NCBI GenBank assembly: GCA_024276465.1
Contig: JAJRXD010000025.1
Span: forward strand, 1-64,000
Source: Deltaproteobacteria bacterium
GTDB taxonomy: Bacteria > Desulfobacterota > WTBG01 > CAIYCZ01 > CAIRTM01
Length of the DNA stretch: 64,000 nt
Reading direction: 5' to 3'
Shown here: positions 7,890 to 29,163 of the stretch, one piece after another
Layout of the letters: the number at the start of each line of letters is the position of its first letter
Position numbering within the stretch: position 1 is the first letter of the stretch
Notes under the pieces: generated by a model
The model's input: only the letters and a program-made list of their open reading frames with translations
What the model was told of the DNA's origin: nothing
Databases searched by the model: none
Translations under genes and position numbers: made by a program

Positions 7890-8001
7890 TAAAAAATTTA
7901 ATTTTACTGTAAATGCAATTTATATTTATTATAGACACCTAACCGGCAACTTGAGTAAGACAGTAAGAATTTTATAATTTAATTTTGAAAGGGGATTGAT
8001 T

Positions 8002-9765: not shown

Positions 9766-9889
9766 AAAAGTTTAACTTCTACAGGTGTTTCGTTTATCCC
9801 CTACCCCTGCATTGATGTGCGGGGCAGCCGAGAACCCTGTCCCTCTGAGGGGACGAGGGAACAAGGTGAGTGAAAACCGGAAAAATATA

Positions 9890-11869: not shown

Positions 11870-11888
11870 GCAGATGTGTGTTGAAAAA

Positions 11889-12665
11889 ATGAGTACCATC
11901 GTAGCTGTTGCAGGAAAAGGCGGTACAGGGAAGACAACAGTTGCAGGTCTTTTAATTCGATACCTGCAGCAAAACAGCCAAACCCCCATACTGGCTGTAG
12001 ATGCGGACCCTGATTCCAATCTTCCTGAAGCCCTGGGAATGACGGGTGAAAAAACAGTTGGAACAATAGGCAGGACCAGAGAAGATTTTTTTGTTAACAG
12101 AGGACAGGTGCCGGCAGGCATGCCTAAAGAAGCCTATCTGGAGCTTAAACTGAGCCAGGTTCTGGTTGAGGCAAAAGATATTGATCTGATGGTTATGGGC
12201 CGTCCGGAAGGCGCTGGATGTTACTGTTATATAAATAATGTTTTGAGAAAACACCTGGAGATTCTTGGTAAAAATTATCCTTATGTTATAATAGATAATG
12301 AGGCGGGGCTGGAGCACCTGAGCCGTCGCACTGCCCAGGACATAGATTTTCTGGTAATTGTTTCCGATTACTCCCTGAATGGTCTTCGGGCGTCAGTACG
12401 GATTAAAAAGCTTTCAGATGAAATGAAGCTTAATGTTAAGGCCCACTGTCTTATTATTAACTGCGCACCGGAATCTGTATCGCCCCGCTTTTTGGAAGAG
12501 GTGGATAAAACAGGGCTTCCCCTTTTAGGCTTTATGCCTGAAGACAAGACAGTGCCACAGTATGATATCGAGAGAAAACCGCTGATCAGCATGCCAGATG
12601 ATTCACCGGTTGTTACAGCCATTAACCCGATAGCCATCAAGATTTTTCAGGAAGGAAAACAGTAA
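11889..12665 (+). CDS. cooC: CO dehydrogenase maturation ATPase CooC
   Basis: 258 residues from ATG 11889 (ATG 11874 is a possible earlier start). MinD/ParA-type ATPase with deviant Walker A GKGGTGKTT at residues ~8-16 and the metal-binding CXC motif of CooC (Cys111-Tyr-Cys113 in GCYCYIN), plus AVDADPDSNL near residue 40. CooC inserts nickel into the C-cluster of CO dehydrogenase, and AcsF does the same for acetyl-CoA synthase. Which target applies here is not decided by sequence. It lies directly behind acsV and before the CODH/ACS structural genes. Confidence 0.9.
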   Translation: MSTIVAVAGKGGTGKTTVAGLLIRYLQQNSQTPILAVDADPDSNLPEALGMTGEKTVGTIGRTREDFFVNRGQVPAGMPKEAYLELKLSQVLVEAKDIDLMVMGRPEGAGCYCYINNVLRKHLEILGKNYPYVIIDNEAGLEHLSRRTAQDIDFLVIVSDYSLNGLRASVRIKKLSDEMKLNVKAHCLIINCAPESVSPRFLEEVDKTGLPLLGFMPEDKTVPQYDIERKPLISMPDDSPVVTAINPIAIKIFQEGKQ

Positions 12666-12860: not shown

Positions 12861-13769
12861 ATGACAGCCAAGATTATAAGTGGTAAAGAGGTGGCTCAGC
12901 AAATCAGGGAGGAGCTCAGGCAGGAAGTTGCAGAAATGAAGGAAAAACATGGTGTTGTTCCCGGGCTCATAACTATTCTTGTGGGGGAAAACCCTGCTTC
13001 TGTCAGCTATGTGACTGCAAAGCAGAAAACCTCTCATGATCTGAATTTTTATTCTGTTCAGGATAACCAGCCCGAAGACATTTCAGAGGAAGATTTGCTC
13101 AAGCTCATCGACAAATACAACAATGACCCGAAGGTTCATGGCATTCTTGTTCAACTCCCGCTTCCAAAGCACATTGATGAAAAAAAGGTTTTGAATGCCA
13201 TTGACCCTGATAAGGATGTGGATGGTTTCCATCCTGTAAACGTGGGGCGGCTCATGATAGGAGGTGGTGAGGCAAAATACCTTCCATGCACCCCGGCAGG
13301 TATTCAGGAGTTGATTGTCAGGGCCGGCTATGAGACAGAAGGGGCTGAAGTTGTGGTGGTTGGTCGTTCTAACATTGTGGGAAAGCCCATTGCCAACATC
13401 ATGATGCAGAAAGCAAAAGGGGCTAACTCCACAGTAACTGTTGTACATACCCGCACCAGAGATATGGAGAGCCACTGCAAAAGGGCAGATATTCTAATTG
13501 TTGCAGCTGGTGTCCCCGACCTTGTAAAACCAGAATGGATAAAGCCCGGCGCCTGTGTTATAGATGTGGGTGTAAACAGGGTCGGAGAAAAGATAAGTGA
13601 AAAAACAGGCAGAAAAATTGCCATATTAAAAGGAGATGTTAATTTTGAGGCAGCTAAAGAAATTGCCGGTGCCATAACCCCGGTTCCTGGTGGTGTGGGT
13701 CCCATGACAATTACCATGCTGATGAAAAACACTGTGAAAGCAGCAAAATTTGCAAACAATATTCAGTAA
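12861..13769 (+). CDS. folD: Methylene-THF dehydrogenase / methenyl-THF cyclohydrolase
   Basis: 302 residues, ATG 12861 behind a strong AGGAGG. The bifunctional FolD converts formyl-THF to methenyl- and methylene-THF, so no separate fchA is needed. Visible signatures are the catalytic Tyr/Lys segment SVSYVTAKQKTS (~48-60), VHGILVQLPLP (~93-103), the cofactor-binding VVVVGRSNIVGKPI (~162-175) and PGGVGPMTI at the C-terminus. Length is usual. It is the methyl-branch step between Fhs and MetF in this operon. Confidence 0.97.
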   Translation: MTAKIISGKEVAQQIREELRQEVAEMKEKHGVVPGLITILVGENPASVSYVTAKQKTSHDLNFYSVQDNQPEDISEEDLLKLIDKYNNDPKVHGILVQLPLPKHIDEKKVLNAIDPDKDVDGFHPVNVGRLMIGGGEAKYLPCTPAGIQELIVRAGYETEGAEVVVVGRSNIVGKPIANIMMQKAKGANSTVTVVHTRTRDMESHCKRADILIVAAGVPDLVKPEWIKPGACVIDVGVNRVGEKISEKTGRKIAILKGDVNFEAAKEIAGAITPVPGGVGPMTITMLMKNTVKAAKFANNIQ

Positions 13770-15287: not shown

Positions 15288-15380
15288 GCAGTGTTCCATT
15301 CTTTATTAAACAAACAGGGGTGTTAAAACAAGAAATTGGGTTCATGATTGAAGCCCATTGCCCATGGAGGAAAAATCAAT

Positions 15381-17342
15381 ATGGCTAAAAAAGCAAGTGA
15401 AGATAAAATATTAACGAGCTGTGGGGGAACTCAGCAGATGATAGATCTGGCGCGCAAGGAGGGTATACCTACGGTGTTTGACAGAGCAGCTACCATGAAG
15501 CCCTGTCCCATAGGGGCAGAGGGGAGCTGCTGCAAGAACTGCGGTATGGGCCCATGCCGGGTTCCGCCATCAAAGAAGGAGGGGGAGCCGGCAAAGGTTG
15601 GCCTGTGCGGAGCAACTGCGGAGACTATATCAGCCAGGAACTTTGCACTAATGGTAGCAGCAGGCTCTGCTGCTCACTCGGATCATGGCCGTGGAGTAGC
15701 AGAGGTTTTTCTGCTGGCTGCAAAGGGAGAGATTCCGGGCTATGGGATAAAGGATGAACAAAAACTGATACAGCTGGGTCTGGACTTCGACCTTGATGTT
15801 GAGAATATGGAGATGAAGGAACTGGCAATCAAAGTGGGGGAGCTGTGTGTAGGCCAGTTTGGAAAGCAGGAGGGAGAGCTTGTATTTGTCAAGAGGGCAC
15901 CGCTTAAAAGGCAGGAGCTGTGGCGTAAAAACAACATGGTTCCGAGGGGTATTGACCGGGAAGTTGTGGAACTGATGCATCGCACGCATATGGGAGTGGA
16001 TCAGGATTACAAAAACATTACGACCCAGGCAGCAAGGGCAGCCCTTGCAGATGGCTGGGGTGGAGCGATGATTGCTACCGAGCTGCAGGATATAATGTTC
16101 GGAACCCCGGTGCCGACCACGGGATACATTAATCTGGGTGTCCTGGAAAAAGATAAGGTAAATATCATTGTTCACGGGCATGAGCCGCTCCTGTCAGAGA
16201 TGATCGTTGTAGCCTGTCAGGACCCGGAAATGCATGCTTTGGCAAAGGAAAAGGGCGCAGATGGAATCAATCTGGCTGGCATGTGCTGTACTGCAAACGA
16301 GATACTGATGCGCCACGGAATCCCCATTGCCGGCAACTTCCTCCAGCAGGAGCTTGCAATTATGACCGGTGTGCTGGATGCAATGGTGGTTGATGTGCAG
16401 TGTATTATGCAGGCAATACAAAAAACATCTGAGAGTTATCACACAGAGGTAATAACAACCTCGCCTAAAGCAAAGATGGAAGGTGCAAAGCATATACAGT
16501 TTGAAGAGCACGATCCGGTAAACACGGCCAAGCAGATTGTGAAGGCGGCCATAGAGAACTATACAAACCGTAAGGGAAAAGTAAATATTCCCAAGGTTAA
16601 GGAAGAGATGGTGGTTGGGTTTTCCCATGAGACTATCAATTATCTTCTTGGCGGAACTTTCCGGGCATCCTACAAGCCCCTGAATGACAATATAATCGGA
16701 GGCAGGATAAGAGGCATAGCAGGAGTTGTCGGATGTAACAATGCGCGGGATGTGGATGATGAGGTTCACCTGACCTTAATCAGGGAGCTGATAAAAAATG
16801 ACGTAATTGTACTTACAACCGGCTGTGTTGCCATGGCATGCGGCAAGGCAGGCCTGCTTGTTCCTGAAGCATCTAAATATTGCGGAACAGGCCTGGCAGA
16901 GGTGTGTGAAACAGTGGGAATACCGCCTATTCTGCATATGGGAGCTTGTGTGGATAACAGCAGGATACTGATTGCAGCAACTGCCGTGGTAAAAGAGGGA
17001 GGACTTGGTGATGATATTTCCGACCTGCCGGCAGCTGGAGCAGCGCCAGCCTGGATGAGTGAAAAAGCAATAGCAATCGGCCATTATTTTGTGGCCTCAG
17101 GAGTATATACTCTGTTCGGCACAACCTTTCCTACTACAGGCAGCAAGAAATATACTGATTATCTGTTTAAGGATCTTGAAGAAGAATGGGGAGGCAAATG
17201 GGATTTTGAACCTGACCCGCTTAAGATGGCAAAAAAGATGATAGACCATATCGATAAAAAGCGCAAAGCCCTTGGTATTGACAAGGCGCGCGAAAGGGTT
17301 CTCATGGATATGGAAATGAGAAGAGAGCTTGATGCTGTTTAA
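15381..17342 (+). CDS. acsA: CO dehydrogenase catalytic subunit
   Basis: 653 residues; ATG 15381 with GGAGG upstream (an upstream in-frame start at 15348 is less likely). It is a CooS/AcsA-type Ni-Fe-S carbon monoxide dehydrogenase that interconverts CO2 and CO at the C-cluster. N-terminal cysteines for the B and D clusters are in CPIGAEGSCCKNCGMGPC (residues ~38-55). Other family segments are HSDHGRGVAEV, GINLAGMCCTANE, GVVGCNNARDV and TTGCVAMACGKAG. It forms the bifunctional complex with AcsB encoded next. Length and motif order are normal. Confidence 0.97.
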   Translation: MAKKASEDKILTSCGGTQQMIDLARKEGIPTVFDRAATMKPCPIGAEGSCCKNCGMGPCRVPPSKKEGEPAKVGLCGATAETISARNFALMVAAGSAAHSDHGRGVAEVFLLAAKGEIPGYGIKDEQKLIQLGLDFDLDVENMEMKELAIKVGELCVGQFGKQEGELVFVKRAPLKRQELWRKNNMVPRGIDREVVELMHRTHMGVDQDYKNITTQAARAALADGWGGAMIATELQDIMFGTPVPTTGYINLGVLEKDKVNIIVHGHEPLLSEMIVVACQDPEMHALAKEKGADGINLAGMCCTANEILMRHGIPIAGNFLQQELAIMTGVLDAMVVDVQCIMQAIQKTSESYHTEVITTSPKAKMEGAKHIQFEEHDPVNTAKQIVKAAIENYTNRKGKVNIPKVKEEMVVGFSHETINYLLGGTFRASYKPLNDNIIGGRIRGIAGVVGCNNARDVDDEVHLTLIRELIKNDVIVLTTGCVAMACGKAGLLVPEASKYCGTGLAEVCETVGIPPILHMGACVDNSRILIAATAVVKEGGLGDDISDLPAAGAAPAWMSEKAIAIGHYFVASGVYTLFGTTFPTTGSKKYTDYLFKDLEEEWGGKWDFEPDPLKMAKKMIDHIDKKRKALGIDKARERVLMDMEMRRELDAV

Positions 17343-17410: not shown

Positions 17411-19618
17411 GTGTCAAAGATTATATTATCTGCTGCCATTAGAGGCGCTCATAAAATAGCATTTCGAGTTGAGAACAAATATTCTGAAGTTTTGAAAAAG
17501 CATGGGCCTGATCAGGAAATCGCATTTCCAAACACAGGCTATTTTCTGCCGATTATCTATTCCATGCTTGGGATTCCCGTAAAAACCCTGGGGGACTGTC
17601 AGCTTGTTTTTCAAAAGGCAAGGAAGCTCCTGCCACCGCTGGTTAAAGAAAATCATCATCTGCCATACCTTGCCCCGGGTCTTGATGCAGGCATGGCATC
17701 GCTTTTTTACCAGGAGATAGAGGAAGCTATTCGATATCTTGAGCAGCCTGACTTTTATCTGACCGGAGAGGATACCACGGATGATAATATCTGGCTTGGG
17801 GCGGCAAACGATATCATCCTCAGAAAGCGGGGAGTGGAATTTGTTGATGGGCGCGCGCCAGGGTTTGCTGCTATTGTTGGAGCAGCTCCGGACAGGGAGA
17901 CCGCAAAGAAAATAGCCGAGGAACTTCAGCTTAAAAACCTCTATGTGTTTATGGCATCAAACGACAGCGGAACCAGCTTTTCAGAACAGCTTGTTGATGC
18001 GGGAGTTCAGATAGGATGGAATACCAGGCTTGTGTCCTTTGGGCCTGATATCTCTGCTGCGGTGTTTGCACTTGGCTTTGCCACACGCGCTGCCATGGCC
18101 TTTGGCGGTGTTAAGCCCGGCGATTTCAGAAAAAATCTTATTTATAATAAAGACAGAATTTTTGCTTTTGTAATGGCCATGGGATTTGTAACAGATGAGT
18201 GGTATGCCACAGCAGCAGGCTGCATCAACTTTGGCTTTCCGGTTATAGCTGATACGCCCATACCGGAAGTGCTTCCTACCGGAATATGCACATATGAGCA
18301 CGTGGTATCCAATGTGCCGCATGATCAGATGGTTTCAAAGGCGATTGAGGTTCGGGGTCTTAAGGTTGCTGTAACAGAAGTTCCGATTCCTGTTGCATAC
18401 GGTCCTGCATTTGAAGGTGAAAGGGTGCGGGGTGATGATATTTATTTTGAATGCGGAGGAGGCCGAACTCAGATGGTGGAGTTTTCGGTCCTGAAGGAGA
18501 TGAATGAGGTTGAGGACGGCAAAATTGAAGTTTTAGGGACTGATATCCCGGATATTAAACCTGGCACCAAACTGCCGTTTGCAATATATGTTGAACTGGC
18601 AGGGCGCCAGATGCAGGAGGATTTCCTCCCTATACTTGAACGGCAGATTCACCACCTGATCAACTATGCCCAGGGCCTGATGCATATAGGGCAGCGCGAT
18701 ATTTCCTGGATAAGGCTGGCTAAACAGGCAGTTGAGAAGGGGTTTACTTTTGCAGACATTGGAAAGATACTGCATGCCATGTTCCATAAGGATTTTGGAG
18801 CTATTGTTGATAAGGTACAGGTTACCTTAACAACCGATGAAGCCAGGGTGACTGAAATTCTGAAGGAGGCTCGCGACACATTTAAAAAGCGCGATGCCAG
18901 GATCGCTGATCTTTCTGATGAAGCTGAGGGCACATATTATTCCTGCACTTTGTGTCAGTCCTTTGCCCCTTCACATGTATGTGTGGTTACACCTGAACGG
19001 ACAGGCCTGTGCGGTGCCTATAACTGGCTTGACTGTAAGGCAGCCTTTGAGATAAACCCGACAGGCCCCAACCAGCCTATTGAGAAGGGAGAAGTTCTGG
19101 ATGAACGTTTAGGAAAGTGGACCGGTGTTAATGAGTTTGTAAGGCAGGCTTCACGCGGCAAAGTGGAAAATGTCAGTGCGTACAGCATAATGACGGATCC
19201 CATGACCTCCTGCGGCTGTTTTGAGTGTATTGCGGCTTTTTTAGACAAATGCAATGGTATTATGACTGTGGACAGGGATTTCAGAGGTGACAGCACACCG
19301 TGTGGTATGAAATTTACTACTCTTGCCGGATCAGCTGGCGGCGGTGGAGTGACCCCTGGTTTTGTTGGTCACAGCAAGCATTATATTGGCTCCAAAAAGT
19401 TTATAAAAGCAGAAGGCGGAATCAAGCGCCTGGTATGGATGCCAAAGGCCCTTAAAGAAGAGCTGAAAGAGAAGATAAATCAACGTGGCAGTGAAACTGG
19501 AGTGGAAAACCTTGCTGACATGATTGCAGATGAAACGATTGGGATGACCCAGGAAGAGATTCTGCCCTTTCTGAAAGAGAAAAAACATCCGGCCCTTGAG
19601 ATGGAACCAATGGTCTGA
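17411..19618 (+). CDS. acsB: Acetyl-CoA synthase (CO-methylating)
   Basis: 735 residues starting at GTG 17411 after AAGAAGGAGAT. It is the alpha subunit that combines CO from AcsA, the methyl group from CFeSP and CoA into acetyl-CoA at the A-cluster. Likely A-cluster ligands are visible: Cys512 and Cys515 in CTLCQSFAPSHVC, and the Cys601-Gly-Cys603 pair plus Cys606 in CGCFEC for the distal nickel. The N-terminal half has LGFATRAAMAFGG, the AcsA-facing channel domain. Length matches bacterial AcsB (~730). TGA stop followed by TAA. Confidence 0.97.
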   Translation: MSKIILSAAIRGAHKIAFRVENKYSEVLKKHGPDQEIAFPNTGYFLPIIYSMLGIPVKTLGDCQLVFQKARKLLPPLVKENHHLPYLAPGLDAGMASLFYQEIEEAIRYLEQPDFYLTGEDTTDDNIWLGAANDIILRKRGVEFVDGRAPGFAAIVGAAPDRETAKKIAEELQLKNLYVFMASNDSGTSFSEQLVDAGVQIGWNTRLVSFGPDISAAVFALGFATRAAMAFGGVKPGDFRKNLIYNKDRIFAFVMAMGFVTDEWYATAAGCINFGFPVIADTPIPEVLPTGICTYEHVVSNVPHDQMVSKAIEVRGLKVAVTEVPIPVAYGPAFEGERVRGDDIYFECGGGRTQMVEFSVLKEMNEVEDGKIEVLGTDIPDIKPGTKLPFAIYVELAGRQMQEDFLPILERQIHHLINYAQGLMHIGQRDISWIRLAKQAVEKGFTFADIGKILHAMFHKDFGAIVDKVQVTLTTDEARVTEILKEARDTFKKRDARIADLSDEAEGTYYSCTLCQSFAPSHVCVVTPERTGLCGAYNWLDCKAAFEINPTGPNQPIEKGEVLDERLGKWTGVNEFVRQASRGKVENVSAYSIMTDPMTSCGCFECIAAFLDKCNGIMTVDRDFRGDSTPCGMKFTTLAGSAGGGGVTPGFVGHSKHYIGSKKFIKAEGGIKRLVWMPKALKEELKEKINQRGSETGVENLADMIADETIGMTQEEILPFLKEKKHPALEMEPMV

Positions 19619-19671: not shown

Positions 19672-21021
19672 ATGGCGCTTTCCGGAATTCAAATCTTTAA
19701 AATGCTCCCCAATACGAACTGCCAGGAGTGCGGGGTTCCAACATGCATGGCTTTTGCAATGAAACTTGCGGCTGGTCAGGCAGAGCTTGATTCCTGCCCG
19801 TATGTTTCAGATGAGGCAAGGGAAAAGCTGGAGGAGGCCTCAGCTCCCCCTATCCGGCCGGTGGTTATAGGAACAGGGGACAGTGCACTTAAGGTTGGAG
19901 GAGAAACAGTAATTTTCAGGCATGAAAAAACTTTTGTAAATAAACCCGGTATCGGGCTTTTAATAACCGACACCATGGATGAGGCTGAAGTAGATAAAAA
20001 ACTTAAAACATTCAAAGAGCTTGAATATGACAGAGTCGGCATGAAACTTAAGGCAGACATAGTGGCATTAAAGGATACTTCCGGTGACCCTGAAAAATTT
20101 TTAAAGCTTGTTGAAAAGGTAAAAAATATGGGGCTGACCACCCTGGTGTTAATGAGCGATAAACCAGAGGTTCTTGCAAAAGCGGTTAAAGCTGCAGGAG
20201 ACATCAGGCCTCTGATCTATGCAGCTACTGATGAAAATGTGGAAGAGCTTGGAAAACTTGCTCTTGAAAACAACTGCCCGATCGCAGTCCGGGGGAAAGA
20301 CCTGGAAAATGCTGCTGAGCTGACCTCAAAGCTTGCCGATATGAAGCTGAAAGATATAGTTATTGATACAGGAGCCCGGGAGATCAGGCAGGCATTCCAG
20401 GACCACATTGCTGTTAGAAGGGCGGCTCTGGTTGACAAGTTCCGGCCCCTTGGATTTCCTACAATTGTTTTCCCCTGTGATATGACGGATGATCCCATAC
20501 AGGAAACTGTTTTTGCTTCAACCTTTATCCCGAAATATGGCGGTATTATAATACTGTCTGAAGTGGATGGCCATAACCTGTTCCCCCTGTCTGTCCAGCG
20601 AATGAACATCTATACAGATCCGCAGAGACCAATGGCGACCACGGAGGGAATTTATGAGATAAACAATCCTGATGAAAACTCACCTGTTCTGATAACAAGT
20701 AATTTTGCCCTGACATACTTTATCGTATCTGGCGAAGTGGAATCAAGCCGGGTGCCATCCTGGCTGCTTATCAAGGATACTGAGGGCCTGTCTGTACTGA
20801 CTGCCTGGGCAGCGGGCAAATTTGTAGCTGATGCCATTGCCCCTTTTGTGAAAAAGTGCGGGATTGAAGATAAAATAAAGCATAGAAAAATTGTTATTCC
20901 AGGTGCAGCGGCTACCATAAGCGGTGATCTGGATGAGGAGCTTACTGACTGGGAGGTTCAAATCGGACCAAGAGAGGGAGCACACATAACCCCGTTTTTA
21001 AAGAACTGGAAGGCTGCGTAA
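19672..21021 (+). CDS. acsC: Corrinoid/iron-sulfur protein large subunit (CFeSP gamma)
   Basis: 449 residues with AGGAGG ahead of ATG 19672. The N-terminal 4Fe-4S module has the spacing C17-x2-C20-x4-C25-x16-C42 (NCQECGVPTC ... DSC). A TIM barrel and a C-terminal cobamide-binding domain (GDLDEELTDWEVQIGPREG) follow. It accepts the methyl group from methyl-THF through AcsE and passes it to AcsB, and its low-potential cluster is used by AcsV for reactivation. Confidence 0.96.
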   Translation: MALSGIQIFKMLPNTNCQECGVPTCMAFAMKLAAGQAELDSCPYVSDEAREKLEEASAPPIRPVVIGTGDSALKVGGETVIFRHEKTFVNKPGIGLLITDTMDEAEVDKKLKTFKELEYDRVGMKLKADIVALKDTSGDPEKFLKLVEKVKNMGLTTLVLMSDKPEVLAKAVKAAGDIRPLIYAATDENVEELGKLALENNCPIAVRGKDLENAAELTSKLADMKLKDIVIDTGAREIRQAFQDHIAVRRAALVDKFRPLGFPTIVFPCDMTDDPIQETVFASTFIPKYGGIIILSEVDGHNLFPLSVQRMNIYTDPQRPMATTEGIYEINNPDENSPVLITSNFALTYFIVSGEVESSRVPSWLLIKDTEGLSVLTAWAAGKFVADAIAPFVKKCGIEDKIKHRKIVIPGAAATISGDLDEELTDWEVQIGPREGAHITPFLKNWKAA

Positions 21022-21081: not shown

Positions 21082-21969
21082 ATGATTGTATCAATTGCAG
21101 AAAGCATAAACATTATGTCAAAAACCATTGGCCCTGCCATGAAGGAAAAAGACCCAAAGCCGATACAGGCAATGGCAATATCTGAGGCAGAGGCTGGTGC
21201 AACATTTCTGGATGTGAATATCGGGCCTGCAAGAAAAGGCGGAGCAGAGATGATGGAATGGCTTGTTAAGACAATACATGAAGTGGTGGATCTGCCGCTT
21301 TCACTTGACACCACTAATCTCGAGGCTATGGAGGCTGGTTTGAAGGCGCATCAAAAAGGCGGGCGCCCCCTTGTTAATTCTGTGTCCTGTCAGGCAGACC
21401 GTATTGATCCGGGTCTGGATATGGTGAAAAAATACGGAGCGCTCATGGTTGGTCTTCTCTGGGGGACTGACGGCATGCCGCGAGATGTAAACGAGAGGGC
21501 TTCGCTGGCAGTTGATATTATTTACAAGGCAAATGAAAAGGGTATTCCAAATGAAGATATCTTCATTGATCCGATTGCCACGCCAGTAAGCGGAGAGATT
21601 AATCAGGTTCTTGCCTGTACTGAATTTATGGGTATGCTCAAGGACATTGGCCCGGGATGCAAATCAACTGTTGGTCTGTCAAACGTCTCAAACGGCGCAC
21701 CTGATGAGCTGAGGCCGGCATTAAACAGGCCGTACCTGCTGATGCTGAAAAAACAGGGCCTGTATTCAGCCATAGTTGATGCCTATGATAAAGAGCTTAT
21801 GGCGATCTGCAAAGGCGAGATGCCTGAACTTGATGCTATTGTGGAGAAGGTAATGGATGGAGTGGAAGTAGATATGGCAAGCCTGTCAGAAAAGGAACAG
21901 CAGTATGCCAAGACGGTAAACGTTCTTATGGGTAAATCCCTTTATTCTGATTCCTGGCTGGAAATTTAG
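21082..21969 (+). CDS. acsE: Methyl-THF:corrinoid Fe-S protein methyltransferase
   Basis: 295 residues, ATG 21082 behind AGGAGG. It is a pterin-binding TIM barrel that moves the methyl group of methyl-THF to cob(I)alamin of AcsCD. Family segments are GATFLDVNIGPAR near residue 50, DTTNLEAMEAGL near 75, and STVGLSNVSNGAP near 195 with the Asn used for pterin protonation. Length is slightly above the clostridial ~262 aa. It is the last core pathway gene before a 240-bp gap and the electron-transfer genes. Confidence 0.95.
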   Translation: MIVSIAESINIMSKTIGPAMKEKDPKPIQAMAISEAEAGATFLDVNIGPARKGGAEMMEWLVKTIHEVVDLPLSLDTTNLEAMEAGLKAHQKGGRPLVNSVSCQADRIDPGLDMVKKYGALMVGLLWGTDGMPRDVNERASLAVDIIYKANEKGIPNEDIFIDPIATPVSGEINQVLACTEFMGMLKDIGPGCKSTVGLSNVSNGAPDELRPALNRPYLLMLKKQGLYSAIVDAYDKELMAICKGEMPELDAIVEKVMDGVEVDMASLSEKEQQYAKTVNVLMGKSLYSDSWLEI

Positions 21970-22006
21970 AAAAGACAGAACAGAGCACCGGTGAATATCT
22001 CTCAAC

Positions 22007-22025
22007 CCCCGCCCGCAGGGCGGGG
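22007..22025 (+). repeat. Strong GC hairpin between acsE and the cytochrome b gene
   Basis: CCCCGCCC and GGGCGGGG pair perfectly around a 3-nt loop in the 240-bp gap 21970-22209. No T-run follows, so it is more likely a processing/stability hairpin or REP-like palindrome than a terminator. The gap contains no gene. Confidence 0.5.
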
Positions 22026-22209
22026 AGTTTCTCCTGAGCGCCAGGTCAAAAAATATTCCCAGATCTTTTTCCTGCTTTCAATTACTTTGAGCGCTTTTTA
22101 ACCATAAATGTTTTTCTAAACGACAAAATGTACAGGGCAGACAGCTTGCCAGCTTTCAATTATCCCAGTTTGACAAATTTCCCTGTCTTTTCCCCCGGGA
22201 GATCCCATT

Positions 22210-22887
22210 ATGTATGATTTGGCTCGGGGGCCCTTGATGTGGGCCGCCTTTATAATTTTTACCGGAGGTGTAATATACAGGTCTGTTCAGTTATTTATGC
22301 TGACCAGAAAAAAAGACCGCAGTTTTTATACCTCACAAAGTCTCAAAAAACAGGACTCCGGCAAATATTCCTCTGAGGAGAAAAAACTGGAACTGCTTGT
22401 CTCCTTTCAAAACACCCTCATTGGGAAGCACCCTGTTATGGCCCTGATTTCGACTGTTTTTCATTTCTGCCTTTTTGTTGTTCCGGTTTTTCTTTTTGCT
22501 CATAACCTGGTGCTTTTTGAGTCCTGGGGCTTTGTTCTTGTGAGCCTTCCTGACTCTGTATGTGATATCCTTACAATCATTTTCCTTTTCTGTGCAGTTT
22601 TTTTTCTTGTCCGTCGTCTCGTTGTTCCCAAGGTTCAGGCTGTTTCAACACCCTATGATTTTCTTCTTCTCCTTATAACCGCGGCGCCTTTTTTGACAGG
22701 CCTGTTTGCCTACCATCAGTGGTTTGACTATAATACTGTTCTTATAATTCATATTCTGGCAGGGGAAGTGATGGTGGCTGCCATACCCTTTACCAAACTG
22801 GGGCATATGGTTTTCTTCTTTTTTGTCAGAATCCTTATTGGAAGCGAGTACAGTTTCGGGCGTGGAAGCAGAACATGGATAACATAG
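22210..22887 (+). CDS. NarI/HmcE-like membrane cytochrome b subunit
   Basis: 225 residues with about five membrane helices (residues ~8-28, ~75-98, ~105-130, ~145-165, ~180-205). Histidines placed as in the NarI/DsrM/HmcE family could ligate two b haems (GKHPVM, FHFC, and KLGHMV near 195). The closing GSEYSFGRGSRTW is characteristic of the TmcC/HmcE type. Such subunits pass electrons between membrane quinone or periplasmic cytochromes and a cytoplasmic HdrC/D-like Fe-S protein, and the next gene encodes one. The ribosome site is GGGAG. It begins the electron-transfer part of the operon. Confidence 0.82.
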   Translation: MYDLARGPLMWAAFIIFTGGVIYRSVQLFMLTRKKDRSFYTSQSLKKQDSGKYSSEEKKLELLVSFQNTLIGKHPVMALISTVFHFCLFVVPVFLFAHNLVLFESWGFVLVSLPDSVCDILTIIFLFCAVFFLVRRLVVPKVQAVSTPYDFLLLLITAAPFLTGLFAYHQWFDYNTVLIIHILAGEVMVAAIPFTKLGHMVFFFFVRILIGSEYSFGRGSRTWIT

Positions 22888-22935
22888 GAAGAAGTAGAGA
22901 CGCAAAATCTTGCGTCCGTACAGGAGTTAAAAATT

Positions 22936-23358
22936 TTGAGTGAAAATATGAAAACTGTTGATACAAAAAAAATCAAAGACATGCTTAAAATGAAAAAGGC
23001 AAGGATGAAACTCAGTCTTTCAGCCTGTGCAAGCTGCAGTATTTGCGCGGAAAGCTGTTTTCTCTTTATGAGCAAAGATAAAGATCCGCAGTACATGCCT
23101 TCCTACAAGGTTGTTAATTCCCTGGGAAAACTTTATAAAAAAAGAGGAAAAGTTGACCGTTTGTTTCTGGAGAAGATGAGAGATCTTATATGGAAAAACT
23201 GCGTGCTGTGTGAGCGCTGTTACTGTCCGTTTGGGATTGATATTCCCGGAATGATTGCTTTTGCCAGAAGCATTTGCCGGTCCCAGGGCATCTCCGGGGT
23301 TTATCCCCATACTCTTGGCGCACCTGAGGAAGAATATTCCAAAAACGAAACCGGATAA
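22936..23358 (+). CDS. HdrC/HmcF-like two-cluster ferredoxin subunit
   Basis: 140 residues from TTG 22936 (AGGAG nine bases before) or ATG 22948. Two cysteine groups, CASCSICAESC (~34-44) and CVLCERCYCP (~94-103), match 4Fe-4S binding in HdrC and in the N-terminal part of HmcF/TmcB. The CCG (HdrB/D) domain found in full-length HmcF is absent, so this is a short electron-relay form. Genomic context puts it between the membrane cytochrome b and metV, suggesting that it carries electrons between the membrane and methylene-THF reductase on the cytoplasmic side. Confidence 0.8.
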   Translation: MSENMKTVDTKKIKDMLKMKKARMKLSLSACASCSICAESCFLFMSKDKDPQYMPSYKVVNSLGKLYKKRGKVDRLFLEKMRDLIWKNCVLCERCYCPFGIDIPGMIAFARSICRSQGISGVYPHTLGAPEEEYSKNETG

Positions 23359-23387
23359 ATCCCTAATTTTTTTAATGGAGTTGAAAA

Positions 23388-24068
23388 ATGATTAAATCAA
23401 AAGCAAAACCCCTGGAAGAGATTAAGGAGATGCTTAAGGGCTACAAAAGGGTTCTCAATACCGGATGTGGCGGCTGTGCGTCTGTCTGCCTTGCGGGCGG
23501 CATGAAAGAGGTGGATGGTTTAAATACAAAATTGTCTGTTTCCTTTAAAGGAGACGGTGTTAGGTTTAAGGTAGACGGGTTTACTGTTGAGCGTCAATGT
23601 GAAATGGAATTTCTGGCTGAACTGGATCAGATGGTGGAACACTATGATGCTATCCTGTCCATGGCCTGTGGTGCAGGGGTCCAGTTCCTTGCAGAGCGTT
23701 ATCCGGACAAACCTGTTTTTCCTGCTGTAAACACGGCCTTTATCGGTGTTAACAGGGATCTGGGCTGGTATGAGGAGCGCTGCAAATCCTGCGGCGATTG
23801 CGTGCTGGGAATAACCGGCGGAATATGCCCGGTGGCCATGTGTGCAAAAGGACTTTTTAACGGACCCTGCGGTGGGCCTCAGGATGGACACTGTGAGGTG
23901 GACAAGGATATTCCCTGTGCATGGGTGAACATCTATGAACGCCTCAAGGCACAGGGCAGGCTGAACAATATATATAAACTGTATACGGCACGGGAGTGGG
24001 AAGATCAGATCCAGGGGCGCATTGTGCTTGAAGCATATAAAAGCAGATATGTTGAAGATGTGAAATAA
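23388..24068 (+). CDS. metV: MetV, methylene-THF reductase zinc/Fe-S partner subunit
   Basis: 226 residues, ATG after TGGAG. The C-terminal part holds the MetV cysteine cluster (CKSCGDCVLGITGGICPVAMC, split at ~141-162, then GLFNGPCGG). The N-terminal part has CGGCASVC and an MACGAGVQFLAERYP segment. MetV binds MetF in acetogens and provides an electron-entry cluster. It sits directly upstream of metF, as in acetogens. Confidence 0.9.
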   Translation: MIKSKAKPLEEIKEMLKGYKRVLNTGCGGCASVCLAGGMKEVDGLNTKLSVSFKGDGVRFKVDGFTVERQCEMEFLAELDQMVEHYDAILSMACGAGVQFLAERYPDKPVFPAVNTAFIGVNRDLGWYEERCKSCGDCVLGITGGICPVAMCAKGLFNGPCGGPQDGHCEVDKDIPCAWVNIYERLKAQGRLNNIYKLYTAREWEDQIQGRIVLEAYKSRYVEDVK

Positions 24069-24094
24069 AATTATACTTAAAAATTTCATGAAAA

Positions 24095-24145
24095 ACATGG
24101 AACCACAGAGCTCACAGAGAACAAACTCTGAGCTCTCAAAAACAT
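24095..24145. repeat. Dispersed CCACAGAGxTCACAGAG repeat, copy 1
   Basis: The metV-metF gap contains AACCACAGAGCTCACAGAG followed by an imperfect inverse (CTCTGAGCTC). A second copy lies at 32997-33042 before the cupin gene. It is a dispersed intergenic repeat that forms a hairpin. Confidence 0.5.
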
Positions 24146-24224
24146 CCAACTCTTTGATTTTTCAGACAAATCTCTGCGGTTTGTTTTTGACAATACACGT
24201 TTGACAATAAAAGGGGCTGTACAA

Positions 24225-25148
24225 ATGAAATCAGGAAGCAATTTAGAAAAGATTTTAGCGGAAGGTAAATTTGCCGTGACCGGAGAGCTGGGTCCTCCGC
24301 GTGGAGCTAATGCAGGTACTATTAAAGATAAGGCACAGCATCTTAAAGGAATGGTTGATTCTGTTAATATAACAGATAACCAGACTGCGGTTGTTCGCAT
24401 GTCAAGCATGGCAGCTTCTACCCTGCTGGTAAAAGAGGGCATGGAACCAAATTACCAGATGGTGTGCAGGGACAGAAACAGGATTGCAATGCAGTCTGAT
24501 ATTTTGGGTGCATATGCACTGGGGATAAGGAATATGCTTTGCCTCTCAGGAGACCACCAGCTTTTTGGCGATCATCCCAAAAGCAGAAAAGTTTTTGATA
24601 TTGATTCCATACAGCTTGTCAGTATGGTGAAAAAAATGAGAGATGAAGGGAAATTTCTAAACGGGGAAGAAATAGCAGACCCGCCCAGGATGTTTATCGG
24701 GGCTGCTGCCAATCCTTTTGGGGAGCCATATGAGTTCAGGGTGCACAGGCTCGCAAAAAAAATAGAAGCTGGTGCTGATTTTATTCAGACGCAGTGCATA
24801 TATAACATGGAAAGATTCAGGGAGTGGATCAAACAGGCAAATGACATGGGTCTTACTGAAAAAGTATATATCCTTGCAGGAGTTACTCCCATGAAGGCTC
24901 TTGGTATGGCAAGGTACATGCAGAAAAATGTTCCGGGAATGGATGTTCCCGACTGGGTGATAAAGCGCCTGCAGGGAGTTGAAAAGAAGAAACAGGCGGG
25001 AGAGGGAATTGCAATCTGCTGCGAACAGATAGAGGAATTCAGGGAGATGAAAGGCGTTGCAGGGGTGCACCTGATGGCAATTGAATGGGAGCACAGGGTG
25101 CCGGAGATAGTAGAAAAGGCAGGGCTGCTTCCGAGACCCACTGTGTAA
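24225..25148 (+). CDS. metF: Methylene-THF reductase MetF
   Basis: 307 residues from ATG 24225 behind AAAGGGG. A flavin TIM barrel of the MTHFR family that interconverts methylene-THF and methyl-THF. Visible are FAVTGELGPPRG near residue 15, NITDNQTAVVRMS (~53-65), LSGDHQLFGDHPKSR (~110-125) and the C-terminal GIAICCEQIEEFREM. It lacks the eukaryotic regulatory domain. It pairs with MetV upstream and lies among Hmc-like electron carriers, which argues for a ferredoxin/cytochrome-linked enzyme rather than a soluble NADH-only one. No NAD subunit is present. Confidence 0.95.
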   Translation: MKSGSNLEKILAEGKFAVTGELGPPRGANAGTIKDKAQHLKGMVDSVNITDNQTAVVRMSSMAASTLLVKEGMEPNYQMVCRDRNRIAMQSDILGAYALGIRNMLCLSGDHQLFGDHPKSRKVFDIDSIQLVSMVKKMRDEGKFLNGEEIADPPRMFIGAAANPFGEPYEFRVHRLAKKIEAGADFIQTQCIYNMERFREWIKQANDMGLTEKVYILAGVTPMKALGMARYMQKNVPGMDVPDWVIKRLQGVEKKKQAGEGIAICCEQIEEFREMKGVAGVHLMAIEWEHRVPEIVEKAGLLPRPTV

Positions 25149-25187
25149 AGCTTAAGAAGTTTGAAAAAAAGAAAAAAGGCAGATATT

Positions 25188-26888
25188 ATGAATAAGCGAA
25201 GGATTATTTCCTCAGTTGCTGCATTTCTTGGAATAGGTTTTTTTCTGTTTGCCGGAATAAAGAACCTGTACTCTGAAGAGGGAAAGGCCGGAGAAACCGG
25301 GGATGCAGCTCCTGCAGAAAAAAAAGCTGAAGAGTTAGCTGACCGCAGTGTTTTTATTTCCATTCCTGAAATATTCAAGGATCTGAAAAGGCCACCTGTA
25401 AAATTTAATCATGACAAACATTCCCGCGCACTGGAAAAAGAGGGCTGTGATAAGTGCCATCCCAGGGATAACAAAGAGAAACTTGTTTTTGAATTTCCTA
25501 AAGGCAGAGAGGATAAAGATCAGGAAGATCTCATGAATCTGTACCATGAAACCTGCATGGGCTGCCACAATGAAAGGATGGAACAGGGGGAGAGTGCCGG
25601 CGCAGTGACATGCGGGGAGTGTCATGTCATTGAAGAGGACTATCACAAAAAAGATTACCTGCCAATAATGCCCTCGTATTACGAGCCGCTGCGCGACACC
25701 TATCACCGGGACTGTATTTCCTGTCACCAGGATCCGGCAAAGGCTGTTGAGGAAGCCGGGGCTCTGGACTGGGCAGGATTTTATATGAAGGAAAAAGAGC
25801 AGATGATGCTGGACTGGCCGAAAGTTTACTTTGACCATTTTCTGCATGAAAAACACGAGAAAGCCCTGGATAACAAGTGCGAAAACTGCCATTACGTTTT
25901 TCTGATGTCTGCGGCAAACAGTTGCCAGGACTGGTTGATGGAAATACCGGAGGGGCAAAGCCTGACCGAAAGGAAAACAGCACATGCCAGGTGCATTAAC
26001 TGTCACATTGAGCTCAGGGACGAAAAAAAGAAGGCAGGGCCTGTTAATTGTAATGAATGTCATACCGGTACCTGGCGGACTGTTGAGGAGATGGCTGATG
26101 TTCCGCGCCTGAAGTGTGAACAGAAGGAAAAGTTCATTATTCAGATTGAAGAAGGCGCAAGGATGGATGGAGTTCCCTTTAACCATAAACTGCATGAGGA
26201 AAGCACAGTGTCATGCCAGACCTGTCACCATGACACTATGAAAACATGCGACTCATGTCATGCTCTGCAGGGAATCGAGGAGGGGGGTTTTGTAACTCTG
26301 GCAGAGGCTTATCATGAGCCTTCATCTCAATGGAGCTGTATTGGCTGCCATGAGTCTGAAAAAAAACGATCACAGTGCGCAGGCTGCCACAAGCACATGA
26401 GGGGTGGGCTTGTTGATGGAAGCTGTATTTCCTGCCACAGTGGTTCGCTGGACAGCCTTGAAAAAAGCAGAAAGATTGATTCCCCTGAGAATATTTTTCC
26501 GGAGGACCTGAAAGATGATATGGAGATTACAGTACTGGAAAAAGAGTATAAGCTTTCCAGGTTCCCTCATCTTGCAATTGTTAAAAAGCTGAATAACATT
26601 TTATCTGACAGCAGGCTGGCCAGATACTTTCACAAGGATGAAACGACCATATGCTCTGGATGTCATCATTACAGTCCTGTTGAGGCAAAAAAGAAGGTGC
26701 CCCTTTGCAGCACCTGTCACACTGTCAGGAAGGAACTTCAGAAGGCCGTGCCCACCCTGCTTGGAGCCTATCATCAGCAGTGTCTGGGCTGCCACAGGGA
26801 AATGGGAGAAAAAGAGGAAAAGATGCCCCAGGCCTGCAACGGGTGCCATGAGGAAAAGATCTCAGAACAGGCAAAAACCGGTTTGTAG
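25188..26888 (+). CDS. hmcA: 16-haem periplasmic cytochrome c (HmcA-like)
   Basis: 566 residues from ATG 25188 (an earlier TTG at 25161 lacks support). The N-terminal hydrophobic segment (~8-28) is a signal or anchor, so the protein is periplasmic. I count 16 CXXCH haem sites (CDKCH, CMGCH, CGECH, CISCH, CENCH, CINCH, CNECH, CQTCH, CDSCH, CIGCH, CAGCH, CISCH, CSGCH, CSTCH, CLGCH, CNGCH). The count and length both match the high-molecular-weight cytochrome HmcA of Desulfovibrio (16 haems, ~545 aa). It exchanges electrons with periplasmic c3 cytochromes and hands them to a membrane HmcB/C unit, here the next two genes. Confidence 0.93.
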   Translation: MNKRRIISSVAAFLGIGFFLFAGIKNLYSEEGKAGETGDAAPAEKKAEELADRSVFISIPEIFKDLKRPPVKFNHDKHSRALEKEGCDKCHPRDNKEKLVFEFPKGREDKDQEDLMNLYHETCMGCHNERMEQGESAGAVTCGECHVIEEDYHKKDYLPIMPSYYEPLRDTYHRDCISCHQDPAKAVEEAGALDWAGFYMKEKEQMMLDWPKVYFDHFLHEKHEKALDNKCENCHYVFLMSAANSCQDWLMEIPEGQSLTERKTAHARCINCHIELRDEKKKAGPVNCNECHTGTWRTVEEMADVPRLKCEQKEKFIIQIEEGARMDGVPFNHKLHEESTVSCQTCHHDTMKTCDSCHALQGIEEGGFVTLAEAYHEPSSQWSCIGCHESEKKRSQCAGCHKHMRGGLVDGSCISCHSGSLDSLEKSRKIDSPENIFPEDLKDDMEITVLEKEYKLSRFPHLAIVKKLNNILSDSRLARYFHKDETTICSGCHHYSPVEAKKKVPLCSTCHTVRKELQKAVPTLLGAYHQQCLGCHREMGEKEEKMPQACNGCHEEKISEQAKTGL

Positions 26889-26909
26889 ATATAAATATGA
26901 AATAATTAT

Positions 26910-27821
26910 ATGCCGAATAACCGTCGAAATTTTTTCAAACAATTAGCTGGAATTGGAAGCCTTCTCCTGCTTGGAAAGAAGAAAAAAGCACATGCTGCTT
27001 ACTCGGGACGCAGTCCGGATCAGTTAGGTGTTCTTGTTGATACAACCCTTTGCGTTGGATGCCGGAGTTGTGAAAAGGCCTGCAACCGGATTAACGAAGA
27101 TCTTCCGCACAAGCCTTCCGAAACTTTCAGAGACGATTCAGTCTTTGAACAGAGAAGAAGAATGGAGTGGGATGCCTACACCGTGGTTAACAGATACAAA
27201 AACCAGGGGGATGAAGGCAGATCCCTGTACGCAAAATTTCAGTGCATGCACTGTGTGTATCCGGCCTGTGAATCAGCCTGTATTGTCGGTGCATTCACCA
27301 GGGAACCGAACGGGGCGGTGATCTATGATGCCTGGAAATGTATCGGATGCCGTTACTGTATGGCAGCCTGTCCTTTTCAGGTCCCTGCATATGAGTACGG
27401 AAACGCCCTGACACCCCAGGTCAGAAAATGTACCTTCTGCTTTGAGAAAAGGCTTTCAGAGGGGAAGATTCCTGCATGTGTCGAGGCCTGTCCCATGCAG
27501 GTCATGAGCTTTGGGAAAAGAAACGATCTTATCAGAAAAGCGAAGAAAAAAATTAAAGAATCCAGTGACCGTTATCTTCCCCATATCTACGGCGAAAGAG
27601 AGGTGGGAGGTACTGCATGGCTGTATCTGTCAGGGGTTGCGTTTGAGGATATTGATTTTCCGAAATTAGGGTATGGACCTGTGCCTGGTTATACCGAGCC
27701 AATTCAGCATGCTATTTTCAAATGGTTTCTTCCACCCCTGGGTTTGTATACAATGCTGGGTGGAATTATGTGGTTTTTGAACAAAAAAAAGAAAAACCGG
27801 AAACAGTTAGAAAACAAATAA
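26910..27821 (+). CDS. hmcB: HmcB/HybA-like four-cluster ferredoxin subunit
   Basis: 303 residues. A twin-arginine signal (RRNFFKQLAGIG, residues ~5-16) sends the folded protein across the membrane. Cysteine groups for four 4Fe-4S clusters follow (CVGCRSCEKAC, CMHCVYPACESAC, CIGCRYCMAACP, CTFC ... CVEACP), then a C-terminal membrane helix (~275-292). This is the DmsB/HybA class that passes electrons between periplasmic cytochrome and an NrfD-type membrane protein. It lies 21 bp after hmcA and 2 bp before hmcC. Confidence 0.92.
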   Translation: MPNNRRNFFKQLAGIGSLLLLGKKKKAHAAYSGRSPDQLGVLVDTTLCVGCRSCEKACNRINEDLPHKPSETFRDDSVFEQRRRMEWDAYTVVNRYKNQGDEGRSLYAKFQCMHCVYPACESACIVGAFTREPNGAVIYDAWKCIGCRYCMAACPFQVPAYEYGNALTPQVRKCTFCFEKRLSEGKIPACVEACPMQVMSFGKRNDLIRKAKKKIKESSDRYLPHIYGEREVGGTAWLYLSGVAFEDIDFPKLGYGPVPGYTEPIQHAIFKWFLPPLGLYTMLGGIMWFLNKKKKNRKQLENK

Positions 27822-27823
27822 AA

Positions 27824-29035
27824 ATGAGTTCTCACCAACGTGCAGCACCTGTTGAAAAAAAGTTTTTTACCCCGGGCATGAAAATTCTTACTGCGGTTAT
27901 GGTCACCGGGCTTGGTTTCGGGCTGTACAGAATGATATTCGGGCTGGCATCTGTTACTAATTTAAACAATCAATATGCGCTGGGCCTGTGGATCGGGGCG
28001 GATGTGGCAACCGGGGTGGCCCTGGCAGCCGGTGGTTTTACCACAGGTGCTTTGGTCTATATTTTTAACCGCGAGCATTTTCATGCTATCCTGAGACCTG
28101 CTCTTCTCACAGCCCTGTTAGGATATACCTTTGTCGGGATAGGTTTAGAGTTTGACCTTGGCAAGTGGTATAATATATGGCATCCGGCAATTCCCTTCAT
28201 GTGGCAGGGAAATTCGGTTTTGTTTGAAGTCGGCATGTGTGTAATGGTGTACCTGAATGTTTTGTATATTGAATTTATGCCGGTTGTATGTGAGAGGTTT
28301 ATCGGCAGGGTAAATCTTCCGGGAATGCTTTCCTGTTTAAATAACCCTGTTGACATACTTCTCAGGTTTCTTGACCATATACTGGGCAAGATAATGTTCA
28401 TTTTTATAATTGCAGGGGTGGTATTATCCTGCCTGCATCAGTCCTCACTGGGGACATTGATGGTTATTGCTCCCTATAAGCTGCATCCCCTGTACTGGTC
28501 GCTTCTTTCACCGGCATTTTTTCTTTCCTCTGCTATTGGTGTTGGACTTCCCATGGTAATCTTTGAATCAATGCTTGCATGCAGGGCATTTGGGCGCAAG
28601 CCTGAAATGCGTGTTCTGACCCCCCTTGCCAGGATCATTCCATTCCTGATAGGCGTATATATTTTCTTAAAAATAGGCGATATGATTTTCAGGGGCACTT
28701 ATGTTTATCTTTTTGAGAGTTCTGTCCCGGCCATAATGTTCTGGATTGAATTCGGTTTTTTGACAGTGGTTCCCTTTTTCATGTTTATGTCTTCTGATAT
28801 TCGGCGGTCTCCGCGGGGACTGTTTATTGCAGCCACCATGTATATTATCGGAATTTTCCTGAACCGCAGCACTGTGTTTTTTATTGCTTTTAAACCGGTA
28901 TATGCTGAAAAGGCTTATATTCCCGCCATGGGTGAGTTTGCCCTTACCATCGGCCTTATTGCAGCCATTATATTTGTTTACCGGGTTTTTGTTACGATAC
29001 TGCCCGTCCTGCCGGCACAGGAAGAAAATTCATAA
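27824..29035 (+). CDS. hmcC: HmcC/NrfD-like integral membrane subunit
   Basis: 403 residues from ATG 27824, just after the hmcB stop. An upstream in-frame start at 27722 lies inside hmcB and is not used. About ten membrane helices with the NrfD/PsrC fold (for example AVMVTGLGFGLYRMIFG near residue 24 and LLTALLGYTFVGIGLEFDLG near 105). NrfD proteins bind menaquinone and may conduct protons. With HmcA and HmcB it would form a periplasm-to-quinone electron module. No hmcD/E follow here; the HmcE-like subunit is encoded upstream of metV instead. Confidence 0.9.
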   Translation: MSSHQRAAPVEKKFFTPGMKILTAVMVTGLGFGLYRMIFGLASVTNLNNQYALGLWIGADVATGVALAAGGFTTGALVYIFNREHFHAILRPALLTALLGYTFVGIGLEFDLGKWYNIWHPAIPFMWQGNSVLFEVGMCVMVYLNVLYIEFMPVVCERFIGRVNLPGMLSCLNNPVDILLRFLDHILGKIMFIFIIAGVVLSCLHQSSLGTLMVIAPYKLHPLYWSLLSPAFFLSSAIGVGLPMVIFESMLACRAFGRKPEMRVLTPLARIIPFLIGVYIFLKIGDMIFRGTYVYLFESSVPAIMFWIEFGFLTVVPFFMFMSSDIRRSPRGLFIAATMYIIGIFLNRSTVFFIAFKPVYAEKAYIPAMGEFALTIGLIAAIIFVYRVFVTILPVLPAQEENS

Positions 29036-29067
29036 TGGCCATAAAAAACCATAAAGGAGATAAGGAA

Positions 29068-29154
29068 ATGAAGCAGGAAAGCTGTCCGGAAGAGGATGAC
29101 ACAGGGGCAGGAGTTCATAGACTCTGCTGGATGAACAAAAAACAAGAATCATGA
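29068..29154 (+). CDS. Possible 28-aa peptide after hmcC
   Basis: ATG 29068 follows a good AAAGGAGATAAGGAA ribosome site and runs to TGA at 29154. The peptide (MKQESCPEEDDTGAGVHRL...) is acidic with two cysteines and has no membrane segment, unlike the small HmcD of Desulfovibrio. The strong ribosome site and position at the operon end are the only support. Confidence 0.3.
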   Translation: MKQESCPEEDDTGAGVHRLCWMNKKQES

Positions 29155-29163
29155 TTAGTTATT

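Follow-up and report, generated by a model that had tools for sequence, protein, structure and literature searches.

The metV-metF block and its products

We analysed a 64,000-nt stretch of DNA (the window; positions 1 to 64,000 of contig JAJRXD010000025.1, assembly GCA_024276465.1) from a Deltaproteobacteria bacterium of the Desulfobacterota, in which the methylene-tetrahydrofolate (methylene-THF) reductase (MTHFR) genes metV and metF lie among genes for membrane-bound and periplasmic electron carriers. The block (22210-29035) consisted of seven plus-strand genes coding for a TmcC/HmcE-like cytochrome b, a protein of 140 aa (HmcFn below), MetV, MetF, HmcA, HmcB, and HmcC (Table 1), as assigned by Pfam and NCBIfam profile searches. 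With the likely start codons, the intergenic gaps measured 48, 29, 156, 39, 21, and 2 bp, bearing out the tight one-strand order given in a preliminary description made from the sequence alone. The cytochrome b gene followed acsE at a distance of 240 bp, and the open reading frame (ORF) downstream of the block (29164-30402) was on the opposite strand. The two translated flanking gaps (21960-22215 and 29020-29170) contained no hmcD-like ORF, and promoter and terminator counts in the region were not above those of shuffled sequence.

The 140-aa protein had been labelled HdrC-like. This identity was ruled out by its NCBIfam matches, which were to HmcF (8.2e-32, limited to positions 37-152 of 457), followed by TmcB and DsrK. 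The protein ended where the second half of HmcF/TmcB would start, the site of the CCG domain in the reference proteins; this domain was absent from all 57 HmcFn scanned and present in reference HmcF/TmcB. Eight cluster cysteines were invariant in the alignment, indicating two [4Fe-4S] sites, and the second motif (CxxCxRCYC) was two residues shorter than the CxxCxxCxxxC of full HmcF/TmcB. No HmcF above the cut-off was found elsewhere in the window's genome. As judged from profiles and alignments, HmcFn corresponds to the N-terminal portion of HmcF/TmcB with its two clusters, from which the CCG (disulfide-reductase) domain has gone, and MetV-MetF occupies the place of the missing domain.

The cytochrome b was nearest to TmcC (4.5e-61), followed by HmcE (3.4e-52), and two b haems are consistent with its four histidines (85, 98, 181, 199) that were invariant among 82 sequences. 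MetV carried 13 conserved cysteines in the alignment, and the adjacency of MetV (PF12225) and MetF (PF02219) constitutes a MetVF-type (type II) core. The three remaining products agreed with their preliminary assignments as a 16-haem cytochrome of HmcA size, a four-cluster HmcB exported by twin-arginine translocation, and an NrfD-type HmcC. HmcA scored 415 bits against NF045713, above the 400-bit equivalog cut-off, and contained exactly 16 CXXCH motifs. HmcB (3e-100; 335 bits against an equivalog cut-off of 420) had an RRNFFK twin-arginine start and 16 cysteines in four clusters. HmcC reached 257 bits with the HmcC profile (cut-off 550) and 330 bits with the HybB-type profile (cut-off 450), placing it closer to HybB. 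Because it retained equivalents of HybB D58 and Y99, and the equivalent residues of QrcD (D70 and Y110) are reported to be essential for Qrc function (PMC13059093), menaquinone exchange at the window HmcC is plausible.

Table 1. Coordinates of the block and of the preceding features in the window.
Feature	Position	Strand	Basis or remark
Cytochrome b, TmcC/HmcE-like membrane subunit	22210..22887	+	NCBIfam; alignment of 82 sequences
HmcFn, truncated HmcF/TmcB, two [4Fe-4S] sites, CCG domain lacking	22936..23358	+	NCBIfam; alignments; tree
MetV, PF12225, member of HmcFn-adjacent MetV group	23388..24068	+	Pfam; tree; alignment
MetF, catalytic MTHFR subunit, PF02219	24225..25148	+	Pfam; ATG 24225 likelier than longest-ORF TTG 24201
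HmcA, hexadecahaem cytochrome c	25188..26888	+	NCBIfam; longest ORF from TTG 25161
HmcB/HybA-like periplasmic four-cluster Fe-S protein	26910..27821	+	Twin-arginine RRNFFK; C-terminal hydrophobic stretch
HmcC, HybB-like NrfD-family membrane protein	27824..29035	+	NCBIfam; longest ORF from 27722
GC-rich 8-bp hairpin with weak T tract, between acsE and block	22007..22025	+	Terminator scan
Fhs, formate-THF ligase	7996..9765	+	
RACo-type corrinoid activator	9785..11701	+	
CooC-type P-loop maturation ATPase	11844..12665	+	
FolD	12861..13769	+	
AcsD, corrinoid iron-sulfur protein (CFeSP) small subunit, 497 aa	13794..15287	+	
CO dehydrogenase (CODH) catalytic subunit	15348..17342	+	
Acetyl-CoA synthase (ACS)	17411..19618	+	
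AcsC, CFeSP large subunit	19672..21021	+	
AcsE, methyl-THF:CFeSP methyltransferase	21082..21969	+	

Recurrence and phylogeny of the module

The HmcFn alignment was scanned against 84,980 species genomes, yielding 118 relatives, of which 80 were kept, mostly on contigs of metagenome-assembled genomes and from Desulfobacterota-type lineages; 'Myxococcota' labels on some loci were read as an effect of the NCBI naming of 'Deltaproteobacteria bacterium' records. Neighbours were counted with HmcFn alone as the query, within 3.5 kb and on the same strand. Cytochrome b was present at 79/80 loci, MetV at 77/80 and MetF at 53/80, and the core of cytochrome b, HmcFn, and MetV recurred at 77/80. In 11 of 12 genomes lacking metF next to the module, a MetF with at least 70% identity to that of the window was encoded at another site. 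Among the loci lacking MetV, one (L127) met its contig end 338 bp past HmcFn, and at two (L151, L170) no MetV was found within 3.5 kb of HmcFn. The periplasmic partner was the tetrahaem TmcA at 57/80 loci and HmcA at 12/80. Most loci had no adjoining Wood-Ljungdahl genes, and their gene order was shuffled. Isolates with the module included Desulfoluna butyratoxydans, D. limicola, D. spongiiphila, Desulfocicer vacuolatum, and Desulfosarcina widdelii.

The complete order from cytochrome b to hmcC, whose absence from relatives had been named as grounds for refuting the preliminary reading, was kept, over the extent of each contig, in the relatives G002, G004, G005, G009, and G010, and also in G008 and G006. 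Because the order recurs, within these contig limits, in independent assemblies of the same family or order, chance adjacency or an assembly chimera was ruled out. G006 and G008 had an extra gene between HmcFn and metV, a REP-type transposase in G008, and the HmcFn of G006 had no cytochrome b called next to it. At locus L102 (10390-10981) a REP-associated tyrosine transposase-like gene, its identity tested in L043 of the same genome, lay between HmcFn and metV, and L103, from the same genus, had a gene of similar size at this position.

In a tree of 118 MetV, a single branch (SH-aLRT 95) separated the 79 HmcFn-adjacent sequences from 39 HdrA-linked, glutamate-synthase-linked or other MetV. Likewise, 82 HmcFn split from 33 full-length HmcF/TmcB (SH-aLRT 99; 115 N-terminal regions with few columns). 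The MetV, HmcFn, and MetF trees were quick-search trees without bootstrap. Pairwise-distance correlations of HmcFn with MetV (0.81) and cytochrome b (0.72) fit co-inheritance, and they were not used as evidence since shared vertical descent alone could yield them.

A locus from another family of the phylum (L236) encoded a beta-propeller protein, cytochrome b, full HmcF with the CCG domain, HmcA, HmcB, and HmcC. Its layout was that of the window, with full HmcF in the position of HmcFn-MetV-MetF, and its HmcA, HmcB, and HmcC were 44, 67, and 72% identical to those of the window. The reference Hmc loci (L216-L218) showed only 44-47% for HmcB and 31-35% for HmcC, so the closest HmcBC found here outside HmcFn-linked loci adjoins an ordinary HmcF. 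At three further loci (L104, L128, L099) the core was paired with a different HmcBC, the NrfD protein of which has Lys at the HybB D58 position.

A putative cytochrome-linked methylene-THF reductase

Taken together, the products of the block most probably assemble into a single membrane-bound complex that acts as a cytochrome-linked methylene-THF reductase. We infer its physical assembly, electron path, and direction as follows. The flavin of cytoplasmic MetF would interconvert methylene-THF and methyl-THF, and electrons would run through the Fe-S centres of MetV into both [4Fe-4S] clusters of HmcFn, MetVF having replaced the CCG domain carried by full-length HmcF/TmcB. From HmcFn, electrons would reach the HmcE/TmcC-like cytochrome, whose two b haems would conduct them through the membrane to 16-haem HmcA in the periplasm and to HmcB-HmcC, for exchange with menaquinone or periplasmic cytochromes. 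The preliminary description had proposed such a connection of MetVF to periplasmic cytochromes or menaquinone; the conservation of the order in relatives and of the core at 77/80 loci supports it, but HmcABC turned out to be one of several periplasmic modules, and TmcA is the commoner.

The Hmc complex (HmcABCDEF) of Desulfovibrio-type sulfate reducers shares with the window the 16-haem HmcA, an HmcE-type cytochrome b, and the HmcF N-terminal region, as well as a four-cluster HmcB and an NrfD-type HmcC, which in the window match their profiles strongly yet stay under the equivalog cut-offs. In contrast to it, the window has no full HmcF with a CCG domain and no detected HmcD, two folate genes are inserted, no DsrA was found in the genome, and the order is E-F'-MetV-MetF-A-B-C instead of the A-B-C-E-F of reference Hmc loci or a complete A-B-C-D-E-F. 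With the Tmc complex (TmcABCD) it shares a cytochrome b nearest TmcC, and most relatives of the module carry tetrahaem TmcA. Of TmcA, full TmcB, TmcC, and TmcD, however, just one, the TmcC-like cytochrome b, occurs in the window: the TmcB counterpart is a truncated form accompanied by MetV(F), as it is also truncated in the TmcA-carrying relatives, no TmcD-like protein was found in the module, and HmcABC takes the place of TmcA. Since defining subunits are absent, this is neither an Hmc nor a Tmc complex. Qrc and Escherichia coli hydrogenase-2 HybAB likewise combine a periplasmic four-cluster protein with an NrfD-type quinone-reactive subunit bearing the HybB D58/Y99 equivalents, but the electron partner in the window is HmcA/cytochrome b/MetVF, not a molybdopterin-like protein or hydrogenase.

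Published MTHFR types comprise MetF alone, MetVF, MetVF-RnfC2, and MetVF-HdrCBA-MvhD (PMC8760232, PMC9430772). Type II (MetVF, ferredoxin in vitro) and type III (MetVF-RnfC2, NADH) share MetV and MetF with the window, whereas they are soluble and devoid of membrane or cytochrome subunits; no RnfC2 gene occurred in the block. Type IV of Moorella thermoacetica and Sporomusa ovata (PMC8760232, PMC9430772) also adds an electron-transfer module to the MetVF core, but the block lacks HdrCBA/MvhD, and its MetVF is encoded together with periplasmic cytochromes and a transmembrane cytochrome b of its own. A membrane tie is known only for this fourth type (PMC9430772, PMC6895022), so that the earlier statement that known MetVF partners are soluble was too strong in view of S. 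ovata. Membranes of S. ovata reduce methylene-THF with H2 (PMC9430772) and those of T. phaeum show methyl-THF:viologen/anthraquinone-2,6-disulfonate (AQDS) activity (PMC6895022); the membrane-integral link to MetVF was not identified in either. In syntrophic sulfate reducers, MetF-HdrABC and Tmc were reported independently of each other (Murali et al., 2023), and the passages of the D. autotrophicum genome paper on its two TmcBCA clusters and on MetF make no connection between them. The HmcFn-MetVF combination is none of the four published types and no description of it was found in the open-access literature, in line with the initial impression that no well-characterised enzyme has this composition. 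By its gene content, the predicted enzyme belongs to the MetVF-type MTHFRs, carries a membrane module derived from Hmc/Tmc, and is distinct from types III and IV.

Several observations weigh against a single complex. MetF was not near the module at 27/80 loci, and its grouping was less clean than that of MetV, with three changes on the tree. The CxxCxRCYC signature was partly ascertained, CVLCxRCYC being one of the two scan patterns. The AlphaFold models of HmcFn (pLDDT 86) and MetV (pLDDT 80) gave no PDB match at E <= 0.001 and so had no bearing on docking, and searches of solved-structure sequences with MetV, MetF, HmcFn, cytochrome b, and HmcC yielded nothing convincing. The genome is an assembly of 181 contigs with 95% completeness, which makes absences provisional, and published MetVF enzymes have mostly been purified as soluble proteins.

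Published potentials are -200 mV for methylene-/methyl-THF, -74 mV for menaquinone, and -432 mV for formate (PMC6895022, PMC8578096), from which we calculated approximately -24 kJ/mol for electron transfer from methyl-THF to menaquinone and -45 kJ/mol from formate to methylene-THF, the latter with charge moving inward across the membrane. Because both reactions are favourable, the complex could run in both directions. Oxidation of methyl-THF, delivering electrons of acetate or methyl groups to menaquinone or cytochromes, appears slightly favoured here, since no DsrA above the cut-off was found in the window's genome or in the 16 genomes searched from its family, order or class, acetate kinase was not found in the window's genome, and an AMP-forming acetyl-CoA synthetase (AcsA) and futalosine-pathway (MqnA/MqnD-family) menaquinone genes were present in it. 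The same complex might instead work reductively, with periplasmic formate or cytochrome electrons reducing methylene-THF and their inward flow conserving energy during autotrophy or acetogenesis; this competes with the favoured direction rather than with the architecture, and we regard it as possible, if somewhat doubtful. It would suit the complete Wood-Ljungdahl cluster including Fhs, the FdnG/FdnI-type formate dehydrogenase of the genome (selenocysteine (Sec)-containing FdnG and a cytochrome b subunit), the Hmc-type cytochromes, and the favourable energetics from formate. The failure to find acetate kinase, together with the presence of AcsA, argues against it, as does the only NiFe hydrogenase found in the genome, which is soluble and Vhu/Nuo-like; assimilatory CO2 fixation would do without acetate kinase, and the absences rest on an incomplete assembly.

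The block lies directly 3' of a complete Wood-Ljungdahl set on the same strand (Fhs, RACo, CooC, FolD, AcsD, CODH, ACS, AcsC, and AcsE), thus including the CODH/ACS, CFeSP, AcsE, Fhs, and FolD genes typical of such an operon. With metVF following acsE in a one-carbon operon, and published type II enzymes being soluble and taking reduced ferredoxin in vitro (PMC8760232), MetVF could be the soluble, ferredoxin-dependent last step of the pathway, with an independent Hmc complex encoded around it. We consider this improbable: such an Hmc complex would have no CCG part of HmcF here and no full HmcF above the cut-off elsewhere in the genome, metV stays with cytochrome b and HmcFn at 77/80 loci, mostly lacking Wood-Ljungdahl neighbours and in shuffled order, and the MetV partners of HmcFn group separately. 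That HmcFn-cytochrome b feeds an Hdr-type partner (HdrABC/MvhD), with MetVF contacting the membrane via Hdr only as modelled for S. ovata, is very unlikely despite the hdrCBA-like genes after the module in Syntrophales-type loci (L098, L107, L108, L124) and a second MetVF beside HdrA in the window's genome (L057), given that Hdr genes are absent from the block and most of the 80 loci and that HdrA-linked MetV fall outside the HmcFn-linked group.

We think it fairly likely that the preferred cytochrome-linked complex represents a fifth MTHFR class. This would be a respiratory enzyme widespread among Desulfobacterota-type bacteria: truncated HmcF/TmcB would anchor MetVF to cytochrome b, and the periplasmic module would be exchangeable, being either TmcA or one of no fewer than two kinds of HmcABC. 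Methylene-/methyl-THF would thereby become a direct respiratory donor or acceptor and a coupling site of Wood-Ljungdahl acetate oxidation or autotrophy. The membrane link of methylene-THF reductase has been debated since the 1970s (PMC8578096). If correct, this would physically connect one-carbon chemistry with the respiratory chain, a link of the kind sought for decades, and the Hmc/Tmc transmembrane conduit would be a modular chassis with an exchangeable cytoplasmic enzyme. The question is directly testable because genes for a dedicated membrane subunit and a putative docking protein accompany metV, in cultured strains too.

Other MTHFR homologues and side observations

The window's genome contained five MTHFR homologues (C94, C173, C117, C108, and C60; L001-L005), with Hmc, HdrA, glutamate-synthase-like, and HdrCB partners and one of canonical appearance. 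On C108 (L058, 1908-9532), metV-metF were followed by two glutamate-synthase-like proteins and a GlmS/FwdC-like protein; the metV-metF and glutamate-synthase-like neighbourhood was also seen in L076, L081, L069, L073, and L052 and is possibly another undescribed MTHFR association. In Syntrophales-type loci (L108, L120, L121, L124) the TmcA-type module directly followed CODH/ACS and preceded hdrC-hdrB-(hdrA), in some cases with a second MetF-like gene, which suggests a combined system. AcsD was 497 aa long in the window and approximately 495-502 aa in close relatives, compared to 312-332 aa in Syntrophales loci, the extra length being C-terminal residues.

Elsewhere in the genome, 15-haem and 10-haem cytochromes (L231, 2753-9988 on C69; L232, 2903-8639 on C169) adjoined molybdopterin oxidoreductases, ArrA/PhsA/QrcB-like with a DsrP-like NrfD and NapA/Fdh-like, and are possible unknown terminal reductases. 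Within the window, positions 49168-53685 encoded a 1505-aa RHS-repeat protein with Lcl_C domains, with a smaller ORF downstream.

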